Below are positions 44,327 through 61,403 of a DNA stretch of 64,000 nucleotides, in pieces (the first letter of the stretch is position 1; every line of letters begins with the position of its first letter). Below the pieces are notes generated by a model. That model had not been told where the DNA came from. It worked only from the letters and a program-made list of their open reading frames with translations, and ran no database searches. The stretch covers positions 3,329,488 through 3,393,487 of the forward strand of contig NZ_CP070608.1 of the NCBI RefSeq assembly GCF_017068455.1, written 5' to 3'. This DNA comes from Fulvivirga lutea. GTDB taxonomy: Bacteria > Bacteroidota > Bacteroidia > Cytophagales > Cyclobacteriaceae. Made by a program: the position numbers and the translations under genes.

Positions 44327-45607
44327 ATGATAAATACTGGTATATCAACATTATTTCTTTTCTGCTCTCTCTTAATAGGCTCTAAAATATCCCCACAACA
44401 ATCGGGCAAGAAATTATTGTATGAGGATGCCACCTATGAAGAAGAGATAAGAACCGTTTTATTGTATCCGAATTCAGGTAATCCTGGGGATGTTTTTTTA
44501 TCTCCTGTAGATAGAGTGGGATCACGCAGGTTAACACTTGAATTTGATGATTTAGTTGAAGCACATGAGCAATATCGTGTGAAGTTAATTCATTGTAATC
44601 GTGATTGGACACCTTCAGGTTTAAGGACTTTAGACTATTTATATGACTTTAACGAGTTTAACATCACACAATACGAATACTCTACAGATACTAAAATCGG
44701 TTACATTCACTACACCTTTCGCCTCCCACCAGTAAAGCAATCAGGTAATTATCTACTTGTTGCCTACAGAGGTTCCGATGAAAAGGATATAATTCTTACT
44801 AAACGGTTTATGATTTATAATCAATCAGTAAGTATTGAAATACTTTCAAACCTTAATGGCCTGACCTCTATGAAAAGAGATAATCAGCAGATAGATTTTA
44901 AAATAAATTATGAAGATATTGAGCTTATCAATCCGCTAGAAAGAATTCGTGTAGTGCTCAGGCAAAATCAGCAATGGTATAATGCGATAACAATTAAAAA
45001 ACCTTCCTTCTTCAGAAACCTTGAACTGGAATATCGATTTTTCAATTTTGAAAATAATTTTAGTGCTGGAAATGAGTATCGGTTTTTTGATATGAGGTCG
45101 CTGAGGTATCCCGGTCAAAATATTGAAAAGGTAGATTTACTAGTGAGGCCATCAAAAGCATATATTATGACCGATGGCCCTCGAATTTATCAGGCGTACG
45201 CACAATATGATGATATTAATGGTAACTTCTACATTCAAAACCAGGACACAGGAGGAAGCTCTGAATCGGACTATCTCTATACTAAATTTTCTCTTGCCTT
45301 GAGGGAACCAATTGGAGGAACGATACACGTAGTTGGTAAAATGAACGATTATAAACTTGATGAAACAACTCAATTAACCCTAGATAACCGTACTAGAACT
45401 TATACTAATACACAGTTATTGAAGCAGGGATTTTATAATTATAAGTATGTTGTAAAAAGCGATACCCTCAATTATAATTATCTGGAGGGAAACCATTTCG
45501 AGACTGAAAATCAGTATGAAATCTTTGTTTATTACAGCCCTCCTGATTTAAGAGGAGATTTACTTGTAGGGTATTCGGAATTAACTTTAAACGAACGCCT
45601 CAATTAG
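44327..45607 (+). CDS. type IX secretion system plug-domain protein (DUF5103)
   Basis: 426 residues with a hydrophobic export signal at the N-terminus. It matches the Bacteroidota DUF5103 family: IRTVLLYPNSGNPGD near the start, LEFDDLVEAHEQYRVKLIHCNRDW, YEYSTDTKIGYIHYTFRLP, and a carboxy-terminal YKYVVKSDTLNYNYLEGNHFETENQYEIFVYY. A member of this family plugs the periplasmic side of the T9SS translocon SprA. TATCTTCG at 44306-44313 with TTTC 20 bases upstream is a near-consensus promoter. It ends convergently on the Cas6 gene (TTAG). Confidence 0.85.
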   Translation: MINTGISTLFLFCSLLIGSKISPQQSGKKLLYEDATYEEEIRTVLLYPNSGNPGDVFLSPVDRVGSRRLTLEFDDLVEAHEQYRVKLIHCNRDWTPSGLRTLDYLYDFNEFNITQYEYSTDTKIGYIHYTFRLPPVKQSGNYLLVAYRGSDEKDIILTKRFMIYNQSVSIEILSNLNGLTSMKRDNQQIDFKINYEDIELINPLERIRVVLRQNQQWYNAITIKKPSFFRNLELEYRFFNFENNFSAGNEYRFFDMRSLRYPGQNIEKVDLLVRPSKAYIMTDGPRIYQAYAQYDDINGNFYIQNQDTGGSSESDYLYTKFSLALREPIGGTIHVVGKMNDYKLDETTQLTLDNRTRTYTNTQLLKQGFYNYKYVVKSDTLNYNYLEGNHFETENQYEIFVYYSPPDLRGDLLVGYSELTLNERLN

Positions 45608-46404
45608 GCATAAGAAAATTCGTAATTCAAAACGCGTTGGCTAGGGTTAGAGTTGGCCACATCGAGCATACCAAATCCCTTATGAGTGAATTGTCCTAAA
45701 CCACTGTGAAAAACAAATTCCTGAACTTTAGGTGCTGCATACATTGTGAAAGGAAAGGTATAGCCCCGCACTTCATATTTAACATCCTGATCAAATACAG
45801 GGTAAATGCGTGCAAACTTCTTTTGAGCAGCTGTTAGCCTGGCCAAATAGCTTTTGTCCGGCACTATTTGAAATTTATAAAAGCTCTTTAGTTCCTCTTC
45901 AGTAAACCTGCCCGTTTCCTGCATACGCTGAATGGTAGAATCGTACAACATATCTGAAAACGAATCTGTATCAGGCTGAATAAATCGTTTAGCAGTGCTA
46001 TCATTAAACGAGGAGCTTAACAACACCAAAGGGCTAATGCAGATAAATTTAATTGAATCTTCAAATTCAATAGACTCCTCCAATTCAACTGCTTCAGGCT
46101 TTAAGAAAAGTGTTCCTATTTCCACCTGTTCAAAGTTGAAGAGGTTTTTCAGGAAATAATCAATAAAATCTTTATTAGGACTGGATAAAACCAACGTAAC
46201 TCTAGAAGAATAAAAATGCAGTCCCTTACGGCTTACTTTTGTCTGACCTTTAAGCCCTGAGAAATTATAAAGGGTATAGTTGATCATCTCGGAGTTTTGA
46301 CCTTTCATCAATATGCCCTTGATCATCTGCGCAAGCATAAATTGATGATGAAAAGGGACATGACTCCCCCTATTTTTTAATGCAAAAACAATACGGACTC
46401 TCAA
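45604..46404 (-). CDS. cas6: Cas6-family CRISPR endoribonuclease, without a CRISPR locus
   Basis: 266 residues. The N-terminal RAMP (ferredoxin-like) fold starts RVRIVFALKN with a His-rich loop (SHVPFHHQF, about 14-22). The mid region FSGLKGQTKVSRKGLHFYSSRVTLVLSSP is typical of Cas6. The C-terminal glycine-rich loop GLGQFTHKGFGMLDV (about 236-250) is the family hallmark. Cas6 cuts precursor crRNA in the repeat. Here no other cas gene and no array are within the window, so a different RNA substrate or action on a remote array must be considered. It ends convergently on the plug-domain gene. Confidence 0.8.
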   Translation of the reverse strand: MRVRIVFALKNRGSHVPFHHQFMLAQMIKGILMKGQNSEMINYTLYNFSGLKGQTKVSRKGLHFYSSRVTLVLSSPNKDFIDYFLKNLFNFEQVEIGTLFLKPEAVELEESIEFEDSIKFICISPLVLLSSSFNDSTAKRFIQPDTDSFSDMLYDSTIQRMQETGRFTEEELKSFYKFQIVPDKSYLARLTAAQKKFARIYPVFDQDVKYEVRGYTFPFTMYAAPKVQEFVFHSGLGQFTHKGFGMLDVANSNPSQRVLNYEFSYA

Positions 46405-46586
46405 CTGTCTAAAAATTACCGTTAAAAAAATAGGTACCGGTTCAAAAAAAGAGGTATCTCTAAAAACTCGCTATCTCAAAAATCTGCCGCTTTATTAAAT
46501 AAACCAGTTATTACAACTGCAAATAGTTATTAAAAATAAAATTAAAAAATCAAATCTGAAAGCCAAAACGGCATTATCTGCTCAAA

Positions 46587-47684
46587 TTAGACGTTAAATC
46601 TGAAGTGCATAATATCGCCATCATGCACAACATATTCCTTACCTTCCACTGCCATCTTACCTGCTTCTTTGCAGGCTACTTCAGTTTTATATTTTTGATA
46701 GTCTTCCAGCTTAATTACTTCAGCCCTAATAAAGCCTTTTTCAAAATCAGTATGAATAACACCAGCCGCTTGTGGAGCCTTCCATCCTTTTCTGATGGTC
46801 CATGCTCGTACCTCAGTAGGTCCTGCGGTAAAGTATGTAATTAAATTTAAGATTGAATAAGCCGCCTTAATTAACTTATTTAATCCAGACTCCTTTAATC
46901 CATACTCTGATAGAAACATTTCTCGTTCCTCAGCATCCTCCAATTCTGCAATTTGGGCTTCAATTGAGGCAGAGACTACCACTACTTCTGCGTTCTCATC
47001 TTTAACGCCTTCTTTCAACCTTTCAGAATGCTCATTTCCATTAGGTAAGGCAGTTTCCTCCACATTAGCCACGTAGATTACTGGCTTCGCTGTGAGTAGC
47101 TGAAGGTCTGCCACTGACTTTTTATCTTCAGCATCTAAATCAATAGTTCTGGCATTATTACCTGACTCAAGGTGCTGTTTATATTTCTGAAGTATTGCCA
47201 AATCCTTTTTAGATTTCGCATCACCTGATTTAGCCTGCTTTTCTATTCTGGAAATCTTCTTATCGATAGACTCCAGGTCTTTCAACTGCAACTCTATATC
47301 AATAACTTCTTTATCTGTTAAAGGGTCTACCTTACCATCAACGTGTACGATATTATCATCATTGAAGCACCTTACCACATGAGCAATGGCATCAACCTCT
47401 CTGATATTGGCTAAAAATTGATTACCCAATCCCTCTCCTTTGCTTGCACCTTTTACAAGGCCAGCAATATCTACAAACTCAATGGTGGTAGGTAATACTT
47501 TCTGAGGGTTTACAAGATCTTCTAAAATATGAAGACGCTCATCTGGAACTGTAATTACGCCTACATTTGGCTCGATTGTACAAAAAGGAAAATTAGCTGC
47601 CTCAGCCTTATTATTAGAGATTGCATTAAATAAAGTAGATTTTCCAACATTAGGAAGACCAACGATACCACATTTGAGTGCCAT
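46587..47684 (-). CDS. ychF: redox-regulated ribosome-binding ATPase YchF
   Basis: 365 residues. Obg-like P-loop domain: Walker [15 protein letters not shown] (about 8-21), switch [21 protein letters not shown], and the ATP-specifying G4 variant NVEE in [13 protein letters not shown] (GTPases have NKxD). A C-terminal TGS domain ends in [14 protein letters not shown]. YchF binds ribosomes and takes part in stress and translation control. The start codon overlaps the stop of the AI-2E permease gene (TAATG). Confidence 0.96.
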
Positions 47685-51773: not shown

Positions 51774-54700
51774 CTAAGGAGAATTACCCCGTATTATTTC
51801 GACCCACCCAGTATACGCCTGTCCGTTTGACTCAACCTTATAGAAGTATATTCCATCAGGAGTATCTCCTCCAGACCAGAAATCTGCTTCTGTTGTACCG
51901 CCATAGCTATCTGATGAAAATACAGTTTTACCCCATCTGTTATTAATGATTAATTGCGTATTACCCTGATCGATATTAATCATTCTGAAAGTATCATTAA
52001 CTCCATCTCCGTTTGGCGTGAATACATTTGGTATGATAACGGTAGAATCTCTAGGGATTTCAATATCTAATTCAATTTCACAACCAAGGGCGTCTGTCAC
52101 AAATAAATCATAATTACCTATTCCTAGACCTTCGTAATCTAGCAGGTAATTATTATTGAATGGATCAAATGGTATTTCATCAGGACCTAAACCAAAGAAT
52201 CCGTCAGCATCCCCTTCTAGAACGGCCTCATAAGGCTCAACCCCACCAGACACTCCAGTTATACTGAATCCACCTGTAGTGTTATCTGGGAATGAACTTG
52301 AAATGTTATCAATAGTTACATTTAATGGCGCAACCACATCAGGAATTTCAAGAGAGTTAGGATGATCAAATATTATTGGATCAACGCATATAGTTTGCGT
52401 TTGCGATAACCTTAGCCTGAAAATCCTGTCAGGTGTTTGTAGGAATGAACGCTCAGTTACTCTGATCTCATCACCAATAGTTAGTGTTAAAGGAACTTGA
52501 TCCACAACCTGCTGCTGATCATTGAATACAAATAAAGTATAATCCGTACCTAACTCGCCAGTGATACCAGTTAGTACCAACTCATTCACATACTCTTTGG
52601 TAGTATTTAAACATCTCTGTTGAAGCTCATAATCAAAAGAAACAGGAATTGGCCCACCAATAATGGAGAAATTACTTTCAAGTGAACATACACCTTCAGT
52701 TTCTGAAGAAACAATCACGGTATAATCACCAGACACCAAACCAGTCTCATTACTTCTCGGGAACAGCCCTGTAATATCATCACCATCCCAGCCATCGTTA
52801 TTCTCATAGATAATATTGGCGGGATCGTTAGCATCCACTATTGTAACAATGTATGGTGGTGGTGGAGAATTAGCAAAATCCACTCTCATTGTAATTCTTC
52901 CTGCACTAGGATTACTACAATTTGCACTTGACGTATTTAACTGAGATAAGTTGATTTGACCAGGAGACGAAACAGCTACTGTTTCCATTACAGTGCAACC
53001 ATTCGCATCTCGCACATAAACATCATAATCACCCGCATCTAAACTACTGAGGCTATTTGTATCGCTGAACTGACCATCGACTACAGTATTTCCACTTATT
53101 ACAAATGCGAAAGTAAAATCTCCACCAGACCCGCCAGCAGCAGTTACTTCGATAGCTCCATCACCGGAGTCACATCCCTCTAAATCTGTAATACTGAAGT
53201 TCACATCAATCTCAGGAGTATTAGAACCAATAAGTATATTTTCAAATCTTTGCGGACATGGGTCATTCTCAATTTCCCCTAGTCTGATTAAGTTATTTCC
53301 TTCTGTTAATCCATTAGGATCAGATGCATTTGGAATAACCAGCGCATTTAATTCAACCCAATCTCCGCCATTAATTGAATAAAAGTAGTCTCCTGTAGTA
53401 GAACCAATCAAGTTTTCAATTTCTATACTACCTGTAGATTCACCAAAACATTCAACATTACTTGTTCCAACAAGGTCTGCTGTAACAGTTGTTTCAGTAC
53501 TAATTGCAACTATTCGTTCAGGTGTGGTAGTGCGGCCATCACAAATATCACCAGATACAACATCTTCTACTATAACATAATATGACCCCGCTCTTAAGTT
53601 ACTTACAGTAACATCACCGTCATTATCCTGACTGAATCGAGAGTAGGTATTATCTGTAATATCAATCAAGGTTACAGCATATGTACCACTACCACCATCA
53701 ATTTCATATGTAATACTACCAGCTTCTGGGTTTTGACAAGTTGGTAATGTTGTAGCACCAGTTACTTCATTAATTGTAGTAAATACAGCACAATCTACAG
53801 CACACCCTGGAGGTAAGCTAATGACAGCTGATTCACTAGCAGAACACCCACTAACATTATCAGTAACAGTTACAGTGTAAGTCCCCTGATTAGAAAGGTT
53901 AGTTAAATCTTCAGTGTCTGCAGTAAAGCTTCCTGGTCCATCCCATGCGAATGTAAAATCACCACTTCCACCGGTCACTGTCAAGTCGATTAAGCCATCA
54001 TCATTACCACATACTGTTACATCAGATGACACAACAGCAAGTGTAAAGTCTACCGGCTCGGTAATAGTAACCACATCTGAATCAGAGCAACCACTATCAT
54101 TGTCTGTGATTGTATATGTATAATCTCCTTGTTCTAGTCCATTTATACTAACTCCAGTACCTACAAATCCATTGGGCCCTACCCAATCCACATCAGTATT
54201 CGGACCTTGTCCTGTTAGTGTGAGATCAATACTTCCATCATTCGCACCACAAGAAGTAATATTGGTTGAAGCCACTGCCACAGTAAAGTTTAAAGGCTCA
54301 TTAATGGTATATGTATCGCTTACTGTACAACCTGTGTCATCATCAGTGACAAGTACATCATAATCACCACCTTCTAAGCCACTTATATCCTCCGAAGTCG
54401 ATGTAAATCCATTAGGACCTGTCCAATCAAATGAATAGTTACCGCTACCACCGTTTATAGTAATTGCTATTTCACCATCACTTGTTCCACAACCTGTTGC
54501 ATCAGTTTGAGTATCTACTGTAATCGTAGGTGCTGGATCAGTCAATGTAGCATCCGGATCATCAACTGAAGTACAAGTTGCAACCGTAATATTTAAATCA
54601 GTATATGTGCCAGCCGGAGCATTAATAGATGCTGCATTTGAAGAAACAACTACACCACTGAAGGTGCCATCTGCATAATTGATATCATAGGTATTATCAG

Positions 54701-57700
54701 GCACACCGGTAAATGTAAGGTTAATTGTTCCGTTTCCTCCACAATCTGTAGGATCTACAACTGAAGCAACTGCTATTGTTGGTACTGGGTCTGTAATAAT
54801 AATTTCAGAATCTTCTGTTGAAGTACAAGCTCCAACTGAAATTCTTAAATCAGTGTAAGTCCCTACAGGCGCTACAACGGTAGCAGCGTTTGAGACAACA
54901 TTGACACCAGTGAATGAACCTGTTGCATAAGTTATAGTATAGGTATTATCCGGAACATTTGTGAAGGTAAAATCAATTGATCCATCTCCACCGCAAGTTA
55001 CTGGGGAAATGCCCACTGCGGCAATTGTTGGTAATGCAGGCTCTGTTAAAACAGCAGCTGGATTATCTACAGATACACATCCATTTTCAGTTATACTTAG
55101 GTCATTATATGCTCCGGCAGCAGCGCTAATAGTAGCCGTGCCGCCTGTGATATTTACATTTGTAAATGAGCCACCATCGAAGTCAATAGTTGCTGCTGCA
55201 TTATCCGCAACTCCTGTAAAACTAAGTTCTATTGTACCATCATCTCCACAATCTGTAGGTTGAGTTACATTGTCTACAGAAATTGTAGGTATTGTAGGAT
55301 CTACTAATGTTGGCCCAACTATTGGTGCAGAGGAACACCCTCCTTCTTCTACTTGTATATCAGTATAATTTCCTGCAAACAAACCATCAATTAATAATAA
55401 TCCACCTGCATCACTTGTTATACCGAATGGACCTTCAGCACCGCCATTAAAATTATAAGTCACATTATACAAAGTAGATATATCAAGACCTGATAACACT
55501 ATTTCTCCTTCATCGCCACCACAAGTTGATGGATTGGTAGAACCATTAATGGCAATCGTAACTGAACCAGGGTCAGACAATGTGAATGGACCGATTAATG
55601 GATCAGAAGTACAATTACTTTCTGTAACCGTAATATCAGAATAGCTACCTGCTATTAACCCTGGAATTGTTAATTCTCCTATACCATTACTTGAAATACT
55701 TACTGGAGCCTCCGGGTTACTATTAAGATTGTAATTGACATCGTATAGTGTATTGTTAGCAAGACCGTTTATAACAATACTCCCGTCAGAATCTCCACAA
55801 GTTGCTGGGTCATTATTACCAACGTGCGCTATGGTAACTGGCGTTGGATCAACCAAATCAAATGGTCCATTCAACGTATTTGAAGTACATCCACTTTCTG
55901 TTACTCTAATATCAGTGTATGAACCTGCATTAAGGCCATTAATTACAATTTCACCTGTAGGAGTGCTAACCTCTCCAGTTAATGATATAGGATTTCCATC
56001 ATCATTAAAGTTTACATCATATGCTGTACTATTTGCCAGACCTGTAATTTCTATTGAACCATCCGTTCCTCCACATGAGTTTGGATTAGATAATGTTCCT
56101 ATCACTATTGTAACTGAACCCGGATCAACTAATACAACCGTTGAGTTCAACGTATTTGAAATACAATTATCTGTACCTGTAACTGTAAAATTATTATAAC
56201 TGCCGGCCACTAATCCAGGAATAATTAAATTACCTGCTCCATCACTTGTCAATAATGGTTCATTAGTTGGAGCTCCATTTACTTCAAAATCAACAGAAAA
56301 ATCACTTGAAGCTGTTAGTCCTGTCAATTGTATTTCACCATCATCTAAACCACAATTAGTAGGGTTATTACCAGAAGCCCCCGTAATAGTCTCACCACCT
56401 GGATCAGATAAAGTAATTGGACCTGCCACGGTATTAGAGGTACACCCAGAAACTACATCTGTTACCACAAAATTCGTATAGCTTCCAGCATTTAAACTGA
56501 TGATAGTAAACTCACCGCCAGGAGTACTTGTAATACTCTCATCTACTTGAATTCCGTCATCAAAATATGTTAATTCATAATCAGTTGATGCATTAAACCC
56601 AACAAGAACAATGGAGCCTTCATCGCCACCACAAGTTGATGGATTACTTTGATTAAAAATGGATAGTGTAATCGCACCAGGATCGGACAAACTGAATGGA
56701 CCGTTTAATGTATTCGAAGAGCAACCTGTTCCTTGGTCAGTAACTGTAATATTAGTGTAGCTTCCTGCGTCAAGCCCTCCTATGTTAAATTCACCACTAA
56801 CATTAGATGTCCCTGTACGAGTATCAGGTGTTCCATCATCAAGAAAATTTACATCAAAATTGGTTGAGGGAGTTAATCCACTTAATAATATACTACCAGT
56901 ACTTACTCCACATGAGGCAGGGTTATTTGGTGTTGCATTAATAACCAATGCCGTTGGTTCCGTTATCGTTATTGTTGCCTGGTCAGTACAGCCATTCGCA
57001 TCTGTTACTGTTACCGTTACCTCTCCTACTGAACCTCCGGTAAAATCTAATGTCGTAGCTGTTGTACTTGTAGTTGCTGTCGCTGTATTACTATCTATCG
57101 TAAATCCATACGGTGCTGTGCCACCGGATGCTGTAAATGTTCCTGCTGCATCCGAATCTCCATTACAATCTAATGCAACATCTGCCGTAGGTGTTAATAC
57201 CAAGACTGCTGGTTCGGTTATCGTTATTGTTGCCTGGTCAGTACAACCATTCGCATCTGTTACTGTTACCGTTACCTCTCCTACTGAACCTCCGGTAAAA
57301 TCTAATGTCGTAGCTGTTGTACTTGTAGTTGCTGTCGCTGTATTACTATCTATCGTAAATCCATACGGTGCCGTGCCACCGGATGCTGTAAATGTTCCTG
57401 CTGCATCCGAATCTCCATTACAATCTAATGCAACATCTGCTGTTGGAGTTAACACTAATGATGGTGGTGCCGTTATCGTTATTGTTGCCTGGTCAGTACA
57501 GCCATTCGCATCTGTTACTGTTACCGTTACTTCTCCTGCTGAACCTCCGGTAAAATCTAATGTCGTAGCTGTTGTACTTGTAGTTGCTGTCGCTGTATTA
57601 CTATCTATCGTAAATCCATACGGTGCCGTGCCACCGGATGCTGTAAATGTTCCTGTTGCATCTGCGTCTCCCGCACAATCTAACACAACATCTGCTGTAG

Positions 57701-60700
57701 GTGTAAGTGTAGTTGCTGTTGCCGGTTCGGTTATCGTTATTGTTGCCTGGTCAGTACAGCCATTCGCATCTGTTACTGTTACCGTTACCTCTCCTACTGA
57801 ACCTCCGGTAAAATCTAATGTCGTAGCTGTTGTACTTGTAGTTGCTGTAGCTGTATTACTATCTATCGTAAATCCATACGGTGCTGTGCCACCGGATGCT
57901 GTAAATGTTCCTGCTGCATCCGAATCTCCATTACAATCTAATGCAACATCTGCCGTAGGTGTTAATACCAAGACTGCTGGTTCGGTTATCGTTATTGTTG
58001 CCTGGTCAGTACAACCATTCGCATCTGTTACTGTTACCGTTACCTCTCCTACTGAACCTCCGGTAAAATCTAATGTCGTAGCTGTTGTACTTGTAGTTGC
58101 TGTAGCTGTATTACTATCTATCGTAAATCCATACGGTGCCGTGCCACCGGATGCTGTAAATGTTCCTGCTGCATCCGAATCTCCATTACAATCTAATGCA
58201 ACATCTGCTGTTGGAGTTAACACTAATGATGGTGGTGCCGTTATCGTTATTGTTGCCTGGTCAGTACAGCCATTCGCATCTGTTACTGTTACCGTTACCT
58301 CTCCTACTGAACCTCCGGTAAAATCTAATGTCGTAGCTGTTGTACTTGTAGTTGCTGTCGCTGTATTACTATCTATCGTAAATCCATACGGTGCTGTGCC
58401 ACCGGATGCTGTAAATGTTCCTGCTGCATCCGAATCTCCATTACAATCTAATGCAACATCTGCCGTAGGTGTTAATACCAAGACTGCTGGTTCGGTTATC
58501 GTTATTGTTGCCTGGTCAGTACAACCATTCGCATCTGTTACTGTTACCGTTACCTCTCCTACTGAACCTCCGGTAAAATCTAATGTCGTAGCTGTTGTAC
58601 TTGTAGTTGCTGTCGCTGTATTACTATCTATCGTAAATCCATACGGTGCCGTGCCACCGGATGCTGTAAATGTTCCTGCTGCATCCGAATCTCCATTACA
58701 ATCTAATGCAACATCTGCCGTAGGTGTTAATACCAAGACTGCTGGTTCGGTTATCGTTATTGTTGCCTGGTCAGTACAACCATTCGCATCTGTTACTGTT
58801 ACCGTTACCTCTCCTACTGAACCTCCGGTAAAATCTAATGTCGTAGCTGTTGTACTTGTAGTTGCTGTCGCTGTATTACTATCTATCGTAAATCCATACG
58901 GTGCCGTGCCACCGGATGCTGTAAATGTTCCTGCTGCATCCGAATCTCCATTACAATCTAATGCAACATCTGCTGTTGGAGTTAACACTAATGATGGTGG
59001 TGCCGTTATCGTTATTGTTGCCTGGTCAGTACAGCCATTCGCATCTGTTACTGTTACCGTTACTTCTCCTACTGAACCTCCGGTAAAATCTAATGTCGTA
59101 GCTGTTGTACTTGTAGTTGCTGTCGCTGTATTACTATCTATCGTAAATCCATACGGTGCCGTGCCACCGGATGCTGTAAATGTTCCTGTTGCATCTGCGT
59201 CTCCCGCACAATCTAACACAACATCTGCTGTAGGTGTAAGTGTAGTTGCTGTTGCCGGTTCGGTTATCGTTATTGTTGCCTGGTCAGTACAGCCATTCGC
59301 ATCTGTTACTGTTACCGTTACCTCTCCTACTGAACCTCCGGTAAAATCTAATGTCGTAGCTGTTGTACTTGTAGTTGCTGTAGCTGTATTACTATCTATC
59401 GTAAATCCATACGGTGCTGTGCCACCGGATGCTGTAAATGTTCCTGCTGCATCCGAATCTCCATTACAATCTAATGCAACATCTGCCGTAGGTGTTAATA
59501 CCAAGACTGCTGGTTCGGTTATCGTTATTGTTGCCTGGTCAGTACAACCATTCGCATCTGTTACTGTTACCGTTACCTCTCCTACTGAACCTCCGGTAAA
59601 ATCTAATGTCGTAGCTGTTGTACTTGTAGTTGCTGTCGCTGTATTACTATCTATCGTAAATCCATACGGTGCCGTGCCACCGGATGCTGTAAATGTTCCT
59701 GCTGCATCCGAATCTCCATTACAATCTAATGCAACATCTGCTGTTGGAGTTAACACTAATGATGGTGGTGCCGTTATCGTTATTGTTGCCTGGTCAGTAC
59801 AGCCATTCGCATCTGTTACTGTTACCGTTACTTCTCCTGCTGAACCTCCGGTAAAATCTAATGTCGTAGCTGTTGTACTTGTAGTTGCTGTCGCTGTATT
59901 ACTATCTATCGTAAATCCATACGGTGCCGTGCCACCGGATGCTGTAAATGTTCCTGTTGCATCTGCGTCTCCCGCACAATCTAACACAACATCTGCTGTA
60001 GGTGTAAGTGTAGTTGCTGTTGCCGGTTCCGTTATCGTTATTGTTGCCTGGTCAGTACAGCCATTCGCATCTGTTACTGTTACCGTTACCTCTCCTACTG
60101 AACCTCCGGTAAAATCTAATGTCGTAGCTGTTGTACTTGTAGTTGCTGTCGCTGTATTACTATCTATCGTAAATCCATACGGTGCTGTGCCACCGGATGC
60201 TGTAAATGTTCCTGCTGCATCCGAATCTCCATTACAATCTAATGCAACATCTGCCGTAGGTGTTAATACCAAGACTGCTGGTTCGGTTATCGTTATTGTT
60301 GCCTGGTCAGTACAGCCATCAGCATCTGTTACTGTTACCGTTACCTCTCCTACTGAACCTCCGGTAAAATCTAATGTCGTAGCTGTTGTACTTGTAGTTG
60401 CTGTCGCTGTATTACTATCTATCGTAAATCCATACGGTGCCGTGCCACCGGATGCTGTAAACGTTCCTGACGCATCCGAATCTCCATTGCAATCTAATGC
60501 AACATCCGCTGTTGGAGTTAATTGTAAATTATTCCAGACCACATCAACATCATCAAAAACACCTGGACAAACCATATTGTCATCTGTAATTGTCCATCTA
60601 AATGTATTGGTTCCAACAGACAAGCCCGTTGCAGTGGTATTTGGAGAATTAGGACTTGCTATCACACCTGAACCTGCTACCACAGACCATTCGCCAGTTT

Positions 60701-61403
60701 CTGTTGACAAAGGCACACTACCCACTAATCCAATGGTTCCATCGCAACTCAATGGAGGGGTTCCTGATGCATCTGGAACTGATGCCACAGATACAACAAT
60801 ATTAGATTCAATAGCCTGACATCCTTCAGAATCTGTCACTGTAACTTCATAGACTCCAGCATCTAATCCTGTCGGATTATCAGTATCCCCAATAGCCGTT
60901 GGGCCTGTCCAAGCAAATGAGTTACCTCCATTTCCTCCAGTAGTTGATATTTGTATTTCACCAGTACCAGCTGTGCAGGCAGGTGTGATGTCATCCACTG
61001 AAATTAAAAGTTCGTCAGGTTCAGTTACTGTTCTAAAATCAAATAGTATTAGTGAAGTGCATGGTGCATCCAAATTAATAACTCTGGCTGTATAAGTAGA
61101 AGGAATTAAACCTGTGAATGTAAATGATGAAGCCGTTGTTGGCGCAGAGTCAATATCGCCACCGTTAATAAAGTCAGTTATTCTATACGTGTAATTTCCT
61201 GCATATCCATTAGGATTATCAACCACAATAGTCATCTGCCCATCATTGAAGCCATTACAGGTTACAGGTGTTGGAGTAACGGTTATGGAATTAACTGGAC
61301 ATTGAGCATATGAATCCCCTAAAGCAATAAACAATAATAGCGTTGCGACTAAGAGAACTTTAGAATGTAAAAGGTTGATACTTTTAAATAACAGTTTTAT
61401 CAT
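51774..61403 (-). CDS. giant SprB-like secreted protein, T9SS type B cargo (gliding-motility C-terminal domain)
   Basis: 3209 residues. Signal peptide at 1-33 (GDSYAQC). N-terminal Ig-like domains reach about 294. A tandem array of 14 near-identical 85-86-residue SprB-type repeats occupies about 295-1487. Three further repeat families follow: six copies of a CGxxxGSI..GL..GSY type, three of a DCGxxGTI..FTGV type, and three of a CGxxDGxI..GGSGxYxFxW type. Irregular beta domains fill about 2480-3110. The end (VFTPNGDGVNDTFRMINID, then NRWGKTVFSSD and DGIYFYKVE) is the type B sorting signal used by T9SS to export and anchor surface proteins. It is probably an adhesin for gliding or attachment. 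Confidence 0.93.
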   Translation of the reverse strand: MIKLLFKSINLLHSKVLLVATLLLFIALGDSYAQCPVNSITVTPTPVTCNGFNDGQMTIVVDNPNGYAGNYTYRITDFINGGDIDSAPTTASSFTFTGLIPSTYTARVINLDAPCTSLILFDFRTVTEPDELLISVDDITPACTAGTGEIQISTTGGNGGNSFAWTGPTAIGDTDNPTGLDAGVYEVTVTDSEGCQAIESNIVVSVASVPDASGTPPLSCDGTIGLVGSVPLSTETGEWSVVAGSGVIASPNSPNTTATGLSVGTNTFRWTITDDNMVCPGVFDDVDVVWNNLQLTPTADVALDCNGDSDASGTFTASGGTAPYGFTIDSNTATATTSTTATTLDFTGGSVGEVTVTVTDADGCTDQATITITEPAVLVLTPTADVALDCNGDSDAAGTFTASGGTAPYGFTIDSNTATATTSTTATTLDFTGGSVGEVTVTVTDANGCTDQATITITEPATATTLTPTADVVLDCAGDADATGTFTASGGTAPYGFTIDSNTATATTSTTATTLDFTGGSAGEVTVTVTDANGCTDQATITITAPPSLVLTPTADVALDCNGDSDAAGTFTASGGTAPYGFTIDSNTATATTSTTATTLDFTGGSVGEVTVTVTDANGCTDQATITITEPAVLVLTPTADVALDCNGDSDAAGTFTASGGTAPYGFTIDSNTATATTSTTATTLDFTGGSVGEVTVTVTDANGCTDQATITITEPATATTLTPTADVVLDCAGDADATGTFTASGGTAPYGFTIDSNTATATTSTTATTLDFTGGSVGEVTVTVTDANGCTDQATITITAPPSLVLTPTADVALDCNGDSDAAGTFTASGGTAPYGFTIDSNTATATTSTTATTLDFTGGSVGEVTVTVTDANGCTDQATITITEPAVLVLTPTADVALDCNGDSDAAGTFTASGGTAPYGFTIDSNTATATTSTTATTLDFTGGSVGEVTVTVTDANGCTDQATITITEPAVLVLTPTADVALDCNGDSDAAGTFTASGGTAPYGFTIDSNTATATTSTTATTLDFTGGSVGEVTVTVTDANGCTDQATITITAPPSLVLTPTADVALDCNGDSDAAGTFTASGGTAPYGFTIDSNTATATTSTTATTLDFTGGSVGEVTVTVTDANGCTDQATITITEPAVLVLTPTADVALDCNGDSDAAGTFTASGGTAPYGFTIDSNTATATTSTTATTLDFTGGSVGEVTVTVTDANGCTDQATITITEPATATTLTPTADVVLDCAGDADATGTFTASGGTAPYGFTIDSNTATATTSTTATTLDFTGGSAGEVTVTVTDANGCTDQATITITAPPSLVLTPTADVALDCNGDSDAAGTFTASGGTAPYGFTIDSNTATATTSTTATTLDFTGGSVGEVTVTVTDANGCTDQATITITEPAVLVLTPTADVALDCNGDSDAAGTFTASGGTAPYGFTIDSNTATATTSTTATTLDFTGGSVGEVTVTVTDANGCTDQATITITEPTALVINATPNNPASCGVSTGSILLSGLTPSTNFDVNFLDDGTPDTRTGTSNVSGEFNIGGLDAGSYTNITVTDQGTGCSSNTLNGPFSLSDPGAITLSIFNQSNPSTCGGDEGSIVLVGFNASTDYELTYFDDGIQVDESITSTPGGEFTIISLNAGSYTNFVVTDVVSGCTSNTVAGPITLSDPGGETITGASGNNPTNCGLDDGEIQLTGLTASSDFSVDFEVNGAPTNEPLLTSDGAGNLIIPGLVAGSYNNFTVTGTDNCISNTLNSTVVLVDPGSVTIVIGTLSNPNSCGGTDGSIEITGLANSTAYDVNFNDDGNPISLTGEVSTPTGEIVINGLNAGSYTDIRVTESGCTSNTLNGPFDLVDPTPVTIAHVGNNDPATCGDSDGSIVINGLANNTLYDVNYNLNSNPEAPVSISSNGIGELTIPGLIAGSYSDITVTESNCTSDPLIGPFTLSDPGSVTIAINGSTNPSTCGGDEGEIVLSGLDISTLYNVTYNFNGGAEGPFGITSDAGGLLLIDGLFAGNYTDIQVEEGGCSSAPIVGPTLVDPTIPTISVDNVTQPTDCGDDGTIELSFTGVADNAAATIDFDGGSFTNVNITGGTATISAAAGAYNDLSITENGCVSVDNPAAVLTEPALPTIAAVGISPVTCGGDGSIDFTFTNVPDNTYTITYATGSFTGVNVVSNAATVVAPVGTYTDLRISVGACTSTEDSEIIITDPVPTIAVASVVDPTDCGGNGTINLTFTGVPDNTYDINYADGTFSGVVVSSNAASINAPAGTYTDLNITVATCTSVDDPDATLTDPAPTITVDTQTDATGCGTSDGEIAITINGGSGNYSFDWTGPNGFTSTSEDISGLEGGDYDVLVTDDDTGCTVSDTYTINEPLNFTVAVASTNITSCGANDGSIDLTLTGQGPNTDVDWVGPNGFVGTGVSINGLEQGDYTYTITDNDSGCSDSDVVTITEPVDFTLAVVSSDVTVCGNDDGLIDLTVTGGSGDFTFAWDGPGSFTADTEDLTNLSNQGTYTVTVTDNVSGCSASESAVISLPPGCAVDCAVFTTINEVTGATTLPTCQNPEAGSITYEIDGGSGTYAVTLIDITDNTYSRFSQDNDGDVTVSNLRAGSYYVIVEDVVSGDICDGRTTTPERIVAISTETTVTADLVGTSNVECFGESTGSIEIENLIGSTTGDYFYSINGGDWVELNALVIPNASDPNGLTEGNNLIRLGEIENDPCPQRFENILIGSNTPEIDVNFSITDLEGCDSGDGAIEVTAAGGSGGDFTFAFVISGNTVVDGQFSDTNSLSSLDAGDYDVYVRDANGCTVMETVAVSSPGQINLSQLNTSSANCSNPSAGRITMRVDFANSPPPPYIVTIVDANDPANIIYENNDGWDGDDITGLFPRSNETGLVSGDYTVIVSSETEGVCSLESNFSIIGGPIPVSFDYELQQRCLNTTKEYVNELVLTGITGELGTDYTLFVFNDQQQVVDQVPLTLTIGDEIRVTERSFLQTPDRIFRLRLSQTQTICVDPIIFDHPNSLEIPDVVAPLNVTIDNISSSFPDNTTGGFSITGVSGGVEPYEAVLEGDADGFFGLGPDEIPFDPFNNNYLLDYEGLGIGNYDLFVTDALGCEIELDIEIPRDSTVIIPNVFTPNGDGVNDTFRMINIDQGNTQLIINNRWGKTVFSSDSYGGTTEADFWSGGDTPDGIYFYKVESNGQAYTGWVEIIRGNSP
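56943..60521 (-). repeat. 14-copy tandem array, 255/258-base units (SprB-type)
   Basis: Each unit codes for 85 residues (86 in three copies): LTPTADVALDCNGD near the start, then SGGTAPYGFTIDSN, a Thr-rich strand, GEVTVTVTDANGC and TITITEP. Two Cys per unit may form a disulfide. Units differ mainly at the linker (EPAV, EPAT, APPS or EPTA) and at a VVLDCAGDADAT variant. Linker order from the N-terminus is V, T, S, V, T, S, V, V, S, V, T, S, V, final, so a three-unit super-repeat (V-T-S) recurs. Identity is very high at nucleotide level. Confidence 0.95.

Follow-up and report, generated by a model that had tools for sequence, protein, structure and literature searches.

Members of the Cas6 family are known for making CRISPR guide RNAs, and Cas6 is treated as a marker of CRISPR; a near-core Cas6 free of CRISPR and present across an order of Bacteroidota would, if true, be a clear case in which the host's RNA metabolism has taken over a crRNA nuclease. 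The nearest precedent is solo-Cas4, a gene of a cas family that is often found outside CRISPR loci (PMC5704561). A lone Cas6 distributed throughout an order is reported neither in the titles and opening abstract lines of the literature searched (preprints and most subscription journals lie outside it) nor in the passages of PMC3150331, PMC12669027 and PMC10600005, and no paper in the literature searched, with the same two exclusions, holds cas6 and ychF together as whole words.

Identification of a Cas6-family gene beside ychF

The window, a stretch of 64,000 nucleotides of Fulvivirga lutea, belongs to a genome of one contig (4,137,993 bases, 99.8% complete). NCBI taxonomy places Fulvivirga in the Fulvivirgaceae, order Cytophagales, while the family used in our genome searches is presumably the GTDB family Cyclobacteriaceae. 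The features of the locus are as follows.

45604..46404, minus strand: Cas6-family gene, 266 aa, TTG start, intact ORF, with a predicted fold
46402..46404, minus strand: TTG start codon of the Cas6-family gene, the codon aligned with residue 1
46345..46350, minus strand: His19-His20 codons (PFHHQ), from the alignment of orthologs; candidate catalytic residue
45664..45702, minus strand: glycine-rich loop GLGQFTHKGFGML (residues 235-247), from translation and alignment
46405..46586, no strand assigned: ychF-cas6 spacer, with a T-run; a covarying hairpin was not found
46587..47684, minus strand: ychF, upstream on the same strand (PF06071, E 8.9e-41)
44327..45607, plus strand: T9SS plug-domain gene, convergent, with a 4-base overlap with the end of cas6 (PF17116, E 4.2e-34)

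A sequence-only reading of this DNA had described an intact Cas6-type gene with a His-rich stretch and a glycine loop, lying between a plug-domain gene and ychF, and profile searches bore out both the gene and its two neighbours. The gene product matches Pfam PF01881 (E 1.8e-19; 71 bits, cut-off 23) and the PADLOC Cas6b profile (8.7e-30), and it passes NCBIfam TIGR01877 narrowly (60.4 bits, cut-off 58.65); Pfam PF10040 matched neither the gene product nor anything else in the window genome. The closest proteins among named records are those of Fulvivirga lutimaris (88%), a Flammeovirgaceae MAG (88%) and an uncultured Fulvivirga (85%). An AlphaFold model made from 21 orthologs (pLDDT 80.2, pTM 0.80, poor at residues 194-214) matched 24 PDB chains at E up to 0.001, of which 20 are titled Cas6, Cas6-related or CRISPR RNA-processing endoribonuclease, two are the RAMP protein 3qjj and two belong to a type I-B CAST Cascade; the best fold matches were 3ufc and 3qjj (TM 0.74-0.75 by query length, 19% identity). 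The gene product is thus Cas6 by sequence and by predicted fold.

The His-rich stretch, PFHHQ, spans residues 17-21, and the glycine loop covers residues 235-247, in which Gly235, Gly237, Gly243 and Gly245 are invariant in all 51 aligned orthologs and all 20 comparison Cas6. His20 is invariant in 51/51 orthologs, with Tyr at that position in 18/20 comparison Cas6, and His19 is kept in 41/51 orthologs; Lys52, Tyr186, Lys195, Arg199, Pro218 and Asp248 never vary among the orthologs but do so among the comparison Cas6, and an LHxxG[YHF]-like motif is present in 16/20 comparison Cas6 and in 0/51 orthologs. Because the orthologs all hold a His where the comparison Cas6 mostly hold a Tyr, an active RNase would be expected, and we infer a metal-independent enzyme in which His20 may be a key residue and which may have an RNA specificity of its own. 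The same alignment bears on the idea that the protein uses its Cas6 fold to bind RNA or to act as a chaperone, without catalysis. This idea would agree with the missing LHxxG[YHF]-type His in 51/51 orthologs and with the closest folds, 3ufc and 3qjj, since we take these two Pyrococcus Cas6-related proteins to be non-catalytic; however, a binder need not keep a His such as the invariant His20, which is accompanied by invariant Lys52, Lys195 and Arg199, and we regard this reading as unlikely.

Distribution, inheritance and selection

By protein search, orthologs were present in 169 of the 196 genomes of the family and in 75 of its 84 genera, with a weakest best E of 5e-72. Across the order, 121/194 genomes (these 194 include 16 of the family, the window genome among them) had a match of any kind, and 115/194, from 13 of 22 families, had one at ortholog level, a count from which the genomes with a weak match only (G240, G291, G333, G336, G360 and G374) were left out. 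The scores in the order were bimodal, with orthologs at E 4e-43 or better and other Cas6 at E 5e-9 or worse (20-26% identity), and only one 55-residue piece at a contig edge (G350) fell between both groups. In the class, 12/295 genomes carried an ortholog, in four families outside the order (32-40% identity, E 6e-36 or better), and in the search of the phylum (247 genomes) seven genomes of the family were matched, and the 27 remaining genomes with a match reached no better than E 8.5e-15.

When 51 ortholog rows and 20 comparison Cas6 were placed in one tree, the orthologs fell on one side of a branch with support 99/99 and grouped mostly by family within their clade; close orthologs had been thinned, L075 and L117 denote a single gene, and the comparison Cas6 had been chosen as weak hits. 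The ortholog was lost in several genera and is therefore not essential. The gene is best read from these comparisons as vertically inherited, resident and conserved, and it is not a stray leftover; the word orphan, used for it in the sequence-only reading, holds in that the tests made revealed no CRISPR partners and undersells a conserved resident gene.

Purifying selection on the gene is strong in the five measurable pairs of 12 (dN/dS 0.013-0.043; the seven others were saturated). Over 12 loci with nine genes present, median identity was 87% for ferredoxin, 78% for ychF, 75% for DUF3276, 71% for the Cas6-family gene, 65% for DUF58 and 49% for the plug gene. A relic of a lost CRISPR locus would fit a window genome with no Cas1 and, by the patterns used, no array, yet the selection data contradict it, as do the retention throughout the order and the conserved active-site region, and such a relic is hardly credible.

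A stand-alone anti-phage RNase would suit a family known for defence and the losses in some genera; against it stand the housekeeping locus, the vertical pattern and the strong purifying selection, together with the absence of any match in 50,697 phage records and a single one in 72,556 plasmid records, on a 602-kb replicon of Bernardetia. We hold this role to be quite improbable. The Bernardetia ortholog (L222:9001-9813, 53% identity) lies near purQ, with mostly metabolic genes around it on the 602-kb plasmid.

The codon at residue 1 was TTG in 53, GTG in 34, ATG in 10 and TTA in 1 (start unclear) of 98 distinct loci of the order, while all 12 orthologs of other orders start with ATG and the ychF start was ATG in 80/80 loci read. 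Such a weak start codon likely gives a low dose of the enzyme.

Position of the gene relative to ychF and the plug gene

The gene ychF lies directly upstream in 80/100 ortholog loci of the order (98 of them distinct) and in 4/12 loci of other orders, counted with one locus per set having less than 1.3 kb of flank, in a sample that leans to close relatives. The plug gene is convergent in 72 of the 100 loci of the order. Among the family genomes, 27 had no match; in seven of these (G008, G046, G056, G062, G119, G188 and G189) the assembly has no complete ychF either, so that they could not be assessed. Of the 20 ortholog-less genomes with ychF, 11 have the plug gene 7-201 nt after ychF, and a search at E 0.01 detected no remains of cas6 at these empty sites; in the other nine the plug gene is absent within 1.5 kb. 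Since the link with ychF also occurs in other orders, the empty sites are best read as losses. As for a connection with translation, the ychF neighbourhood is a hint only.

The sequence-only reading had also proposed that the enzyme might process a 3' overlap transcript from the convergent plug gene. The 4-base gene overlap found here and the convergent plug gene in most loci of the order would accord with this proposal, but the plug gene was not detected beside the ortholog in 28/100 loci of the order (some with a flank of at most 1.5 kb) or in any of the 12 loci of other orders, and we consider such a target extremely improbable.

CRISPR systems in the window genome and in relatives

For CRISPR INDEPENDENCE, the window genome had no match to Cas1 (PF01867), DevR/Cas7 (PF01905), RAMP (PF03787) or PF10040. 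These profile searches cover the named families only, the PDLC01381 Cas6 and the class 2 effectors being outside the genome-wide search; on 14 control genomes the same profiles were positive in nine for Cas1, four for RAMP, two for DevR and two for PF10040, and because few control genomes were positive, DevR and RAMP alone are weak negatives. No array was found in the window by an array scan and a search for direct repeats of at least 20 nt with copies within 200 nt. Three families of direct repeats were present, one being a 20-nt pair at 1238 and two lying inside a gene for 3209 aa (51774-61403, minus strand), which contains repeats of about 129 nt and whose product ends in what we take to be a C-terminus of the gliding-motility (CHU_C) type. 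Genome-wide, the paired ATTGAAAY pattern gave three isolated matches, equal to the three of the reversed control, and the CATCC...GGATTRARAC pattern gave 0 copies; these two repeat patterns were searched in the whole genome, and the general scan covered the window and a 400-kb sample. The earlier statement that the window has no CRISPR repeats was upheld by both the repeat search and the array scan, and the companion statement that it has no other cas genes was extended to the whole genome for Cas1, DevR, RAMP and PF10040 and, for the window too, is covered for these families only.

Neither an array nor a match to any of 11 cas proteins from relatives was present in the 117 ortholog loci, most of which had flanks of 1.5-6 kb. 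Among the 20 comparison Cas6 loci (up to 9 kb per side) we found an array in 11, a cas gene in 14 and one or the other in 15, the exceptions being L123, L125, L126, L127 and L139. Considered by role, the gene thus lies in no cas operon and next to no array at the 117 loci, and the window genome holds no CRISPR system as far as the cas families and the two repeat patterns tested can tell. L123, L126 and L127, all of family f19, are divergent Cas6-like genes with no array or tested-cas match in 12-19 kb, and are possibly other solo Cas6.

In the family, 70 genomes had both the ortholog and Cas1, 99 the ortholog and no Cas1, five Cas1 and no ortholog, and 22 neither. Cas1 and the ortholog are thus linked in a weakly positive way (odds ratio 3.1, p 0.03 in 196 genomes; 4.0, p 0.03 in the 189 assessable), uncorrected for relatedness, and the Cas1 counts may include type II systems, which need no Cas6. 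RAMP was present in 15/196 genomes, all of them with the ortholog (p 0.23), and at least five copies of the CATCC...GGATTRARAC repeat were present in 17/196, of which 16 had the ortholog and the 17th was G056, which has no ychF in its assembly; neither the RAMP nor the repeat association was significant (p 0.23-0.48).

Most CRISPR loci examined in the relatives had a Cas6 of their own. A first HMM, which was insensitive, detected a local Cas6 in one of 14 type III loci (L195), and a rescan after PADLOC added 10 more, giving 11/14; the three without (L200-L202) are on contigs of 8-18 kb. The idea that the ortholog might process RNA in trans for type III loci lacking Cas6 was therefore rejected. 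Six further Cas1 loci all have a local Cas6, five by HMM and the sixth, L204 (type I-B), by PADLOC. A third, divergent Cas6 family (PDLC01381/PDLC02104) was recognised at L192:2738-3400 (plus strand) and L204:9605-10285 (minus strand), in type III-D and type I-B loci, and the loci of these two types in the family share similar 36-37-nt repeats with CATCC...GGATTRARAC. These Cas6 occur in the same bacteria as the ortholog and, like it, under Cas6-named profiles; unlike it they lie among cas genes near arrays, and the HMMs of the orthologs or of the 20 comparison Cas6 miss them. The CRISPR systems examined here thus usually come with a different Cas6 of their own, and at least two kinds of it occur. 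In one CRISPR locus, L130 (G234:C2:356862-357967), two adjacent Cas6-like matches were observed, one of which has DHQ (compare HHQ in the orthologs) and, in the tree, joins next to the orthologs by a very long branch.

These counts bear on the possibility of a resident crRNA processor working for CRISPR systems, chiefly those of type III, as they come and go. It would explain why all 15 RAMP-positive and 16 of the 17 repeat-rich genomes carry the ortholog and why the association with Cas1 is weakly positive, but RAMP is confined to 15/196 genomes, its association and that of the repeat are not significant, a local Cas6 is present in 11/14 type III and 6/6 other Cas1 loci, and 98 of the 169 ortholog-bearing genomes have neither Cas1 nor RAMP. 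We think this role improbable. Service to a remote array in the window genome itself, which the sequence-only reading had put forward, was not borne out either, as Cas1, DevR, RAMP and the two repeat patterns were negative and the loci of relatives mostly have their own Cas6. That reading had called for a test of conservation in relatives lacking CRISPR, and the same 98 genomes retain the gene without Cas1 or RAMP. Its other suggestion was adoption of the enzyme to process a cellular RNA; this has become the preferred explanation, on the evolutionary grounds that nearly the whole family has the gene and that it is retained in many genomes without Cas1 or RAMP.

Search for a possible host RNA target

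A k-mer scan of 31.9 kb of intergenic sequence, from the window and a 400-kb sample (11% of the genome), recognised no dispersed hairpin family; the top words were the CCAGCAACC group with 6-7 copies, and Rfam found one tRNA only in the window. A scan of synonymous sites in 47 sequences, thinned from 74, showed no continuous RNA element inside the gene: Ser58 and codon 2 (AGR in 46/47) stood out, followed by scattered codons, and the Ser58 signal may be an AGY/TCN split and that of codon 2 the start context. A run of at least five T within 50 nt upstream is present in 68/73 ortholog loci, against 4/13 genes of the window, and in an alignment of 79 leaders conservation was limited to the T-run and the start. 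An RNA element in the leader was considered and rejected, since RNAalifold on eight close leaders gave seven pairs, 0 of them changed on both sides. On the minus strand at 45500-46700, a pattern scan, limited to the sigma-70 type for promoters, found no promoter-like or terminator-like site.

Discussion

We consider it rather probable, from the evolutionary evidence, that the gene encodes a resident Cas6-family endoribonuclease that is independent of CRISPR and would act on a host RNA. The proposed mechanism is that a Cas6-family endoribonuclease, inherited vertically, may no longer serve CRISPR; it would cut without metal, probably by means of His20 and nearby conserved Lys and Arg residues; its targets would be one or a few structured host transcripts, either a non-coding RNA or an element of an mRNA; and the weak start codon would keep its dose low. 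To a bolder proposal, that one ancient Cas6 lineage turned on a single occasion into a housekeeping RNA processor of the class Bacteroidia with a dedicated host RNA, perhaps tied to the ribosome-associated ATPase gene ychF, we give an even chance. This would be the first order-wide domestication of a crRNA-processing nuclease known to us.

If such a near-core Cas6 is indeed free of CRISPR, annotation mislabels the genomes that have it as carriers of a CRISPR gene: the Bernardetia ortholog bears the RefSeq label 'CRISPR-associated endoribonuclease Cas6', and the gene product studied here is over the TIGR01877 cut-off. Moreover, the question of which cellular RNA is cut by a Cas6 in the absence of CRISPR is made testable, and the enzyme could yield a new sequence-specific RNA cutter.

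Compared with the CRISPR-associated Cas6 and Cas6b (PF01881, TIGR01877 and PADLOC Cas6b), the orthologs are alike in profile, predicted fold, glycine loop and length; they differ in having His20 in place of Tyr and in being without the LHxxG[YHF]-type His, and also in that their 117 loci are without an array or cas gene, often with a fixed place beside ychF, and that they are near-core in the family. The Pyrococcus Cas6-related proteins 3ufc and 3qjj are nearest in predicted fold; however, these are archaeal and come from hosts with CRISPR, and neither is encoded by a gene resident in a bacterial order. Solo-Cas4, finally, differs in that Cas4 is a nuclease that belongs to the adaptation module, whereas the gene described here belongs to a family of RNA-processing enzymes.
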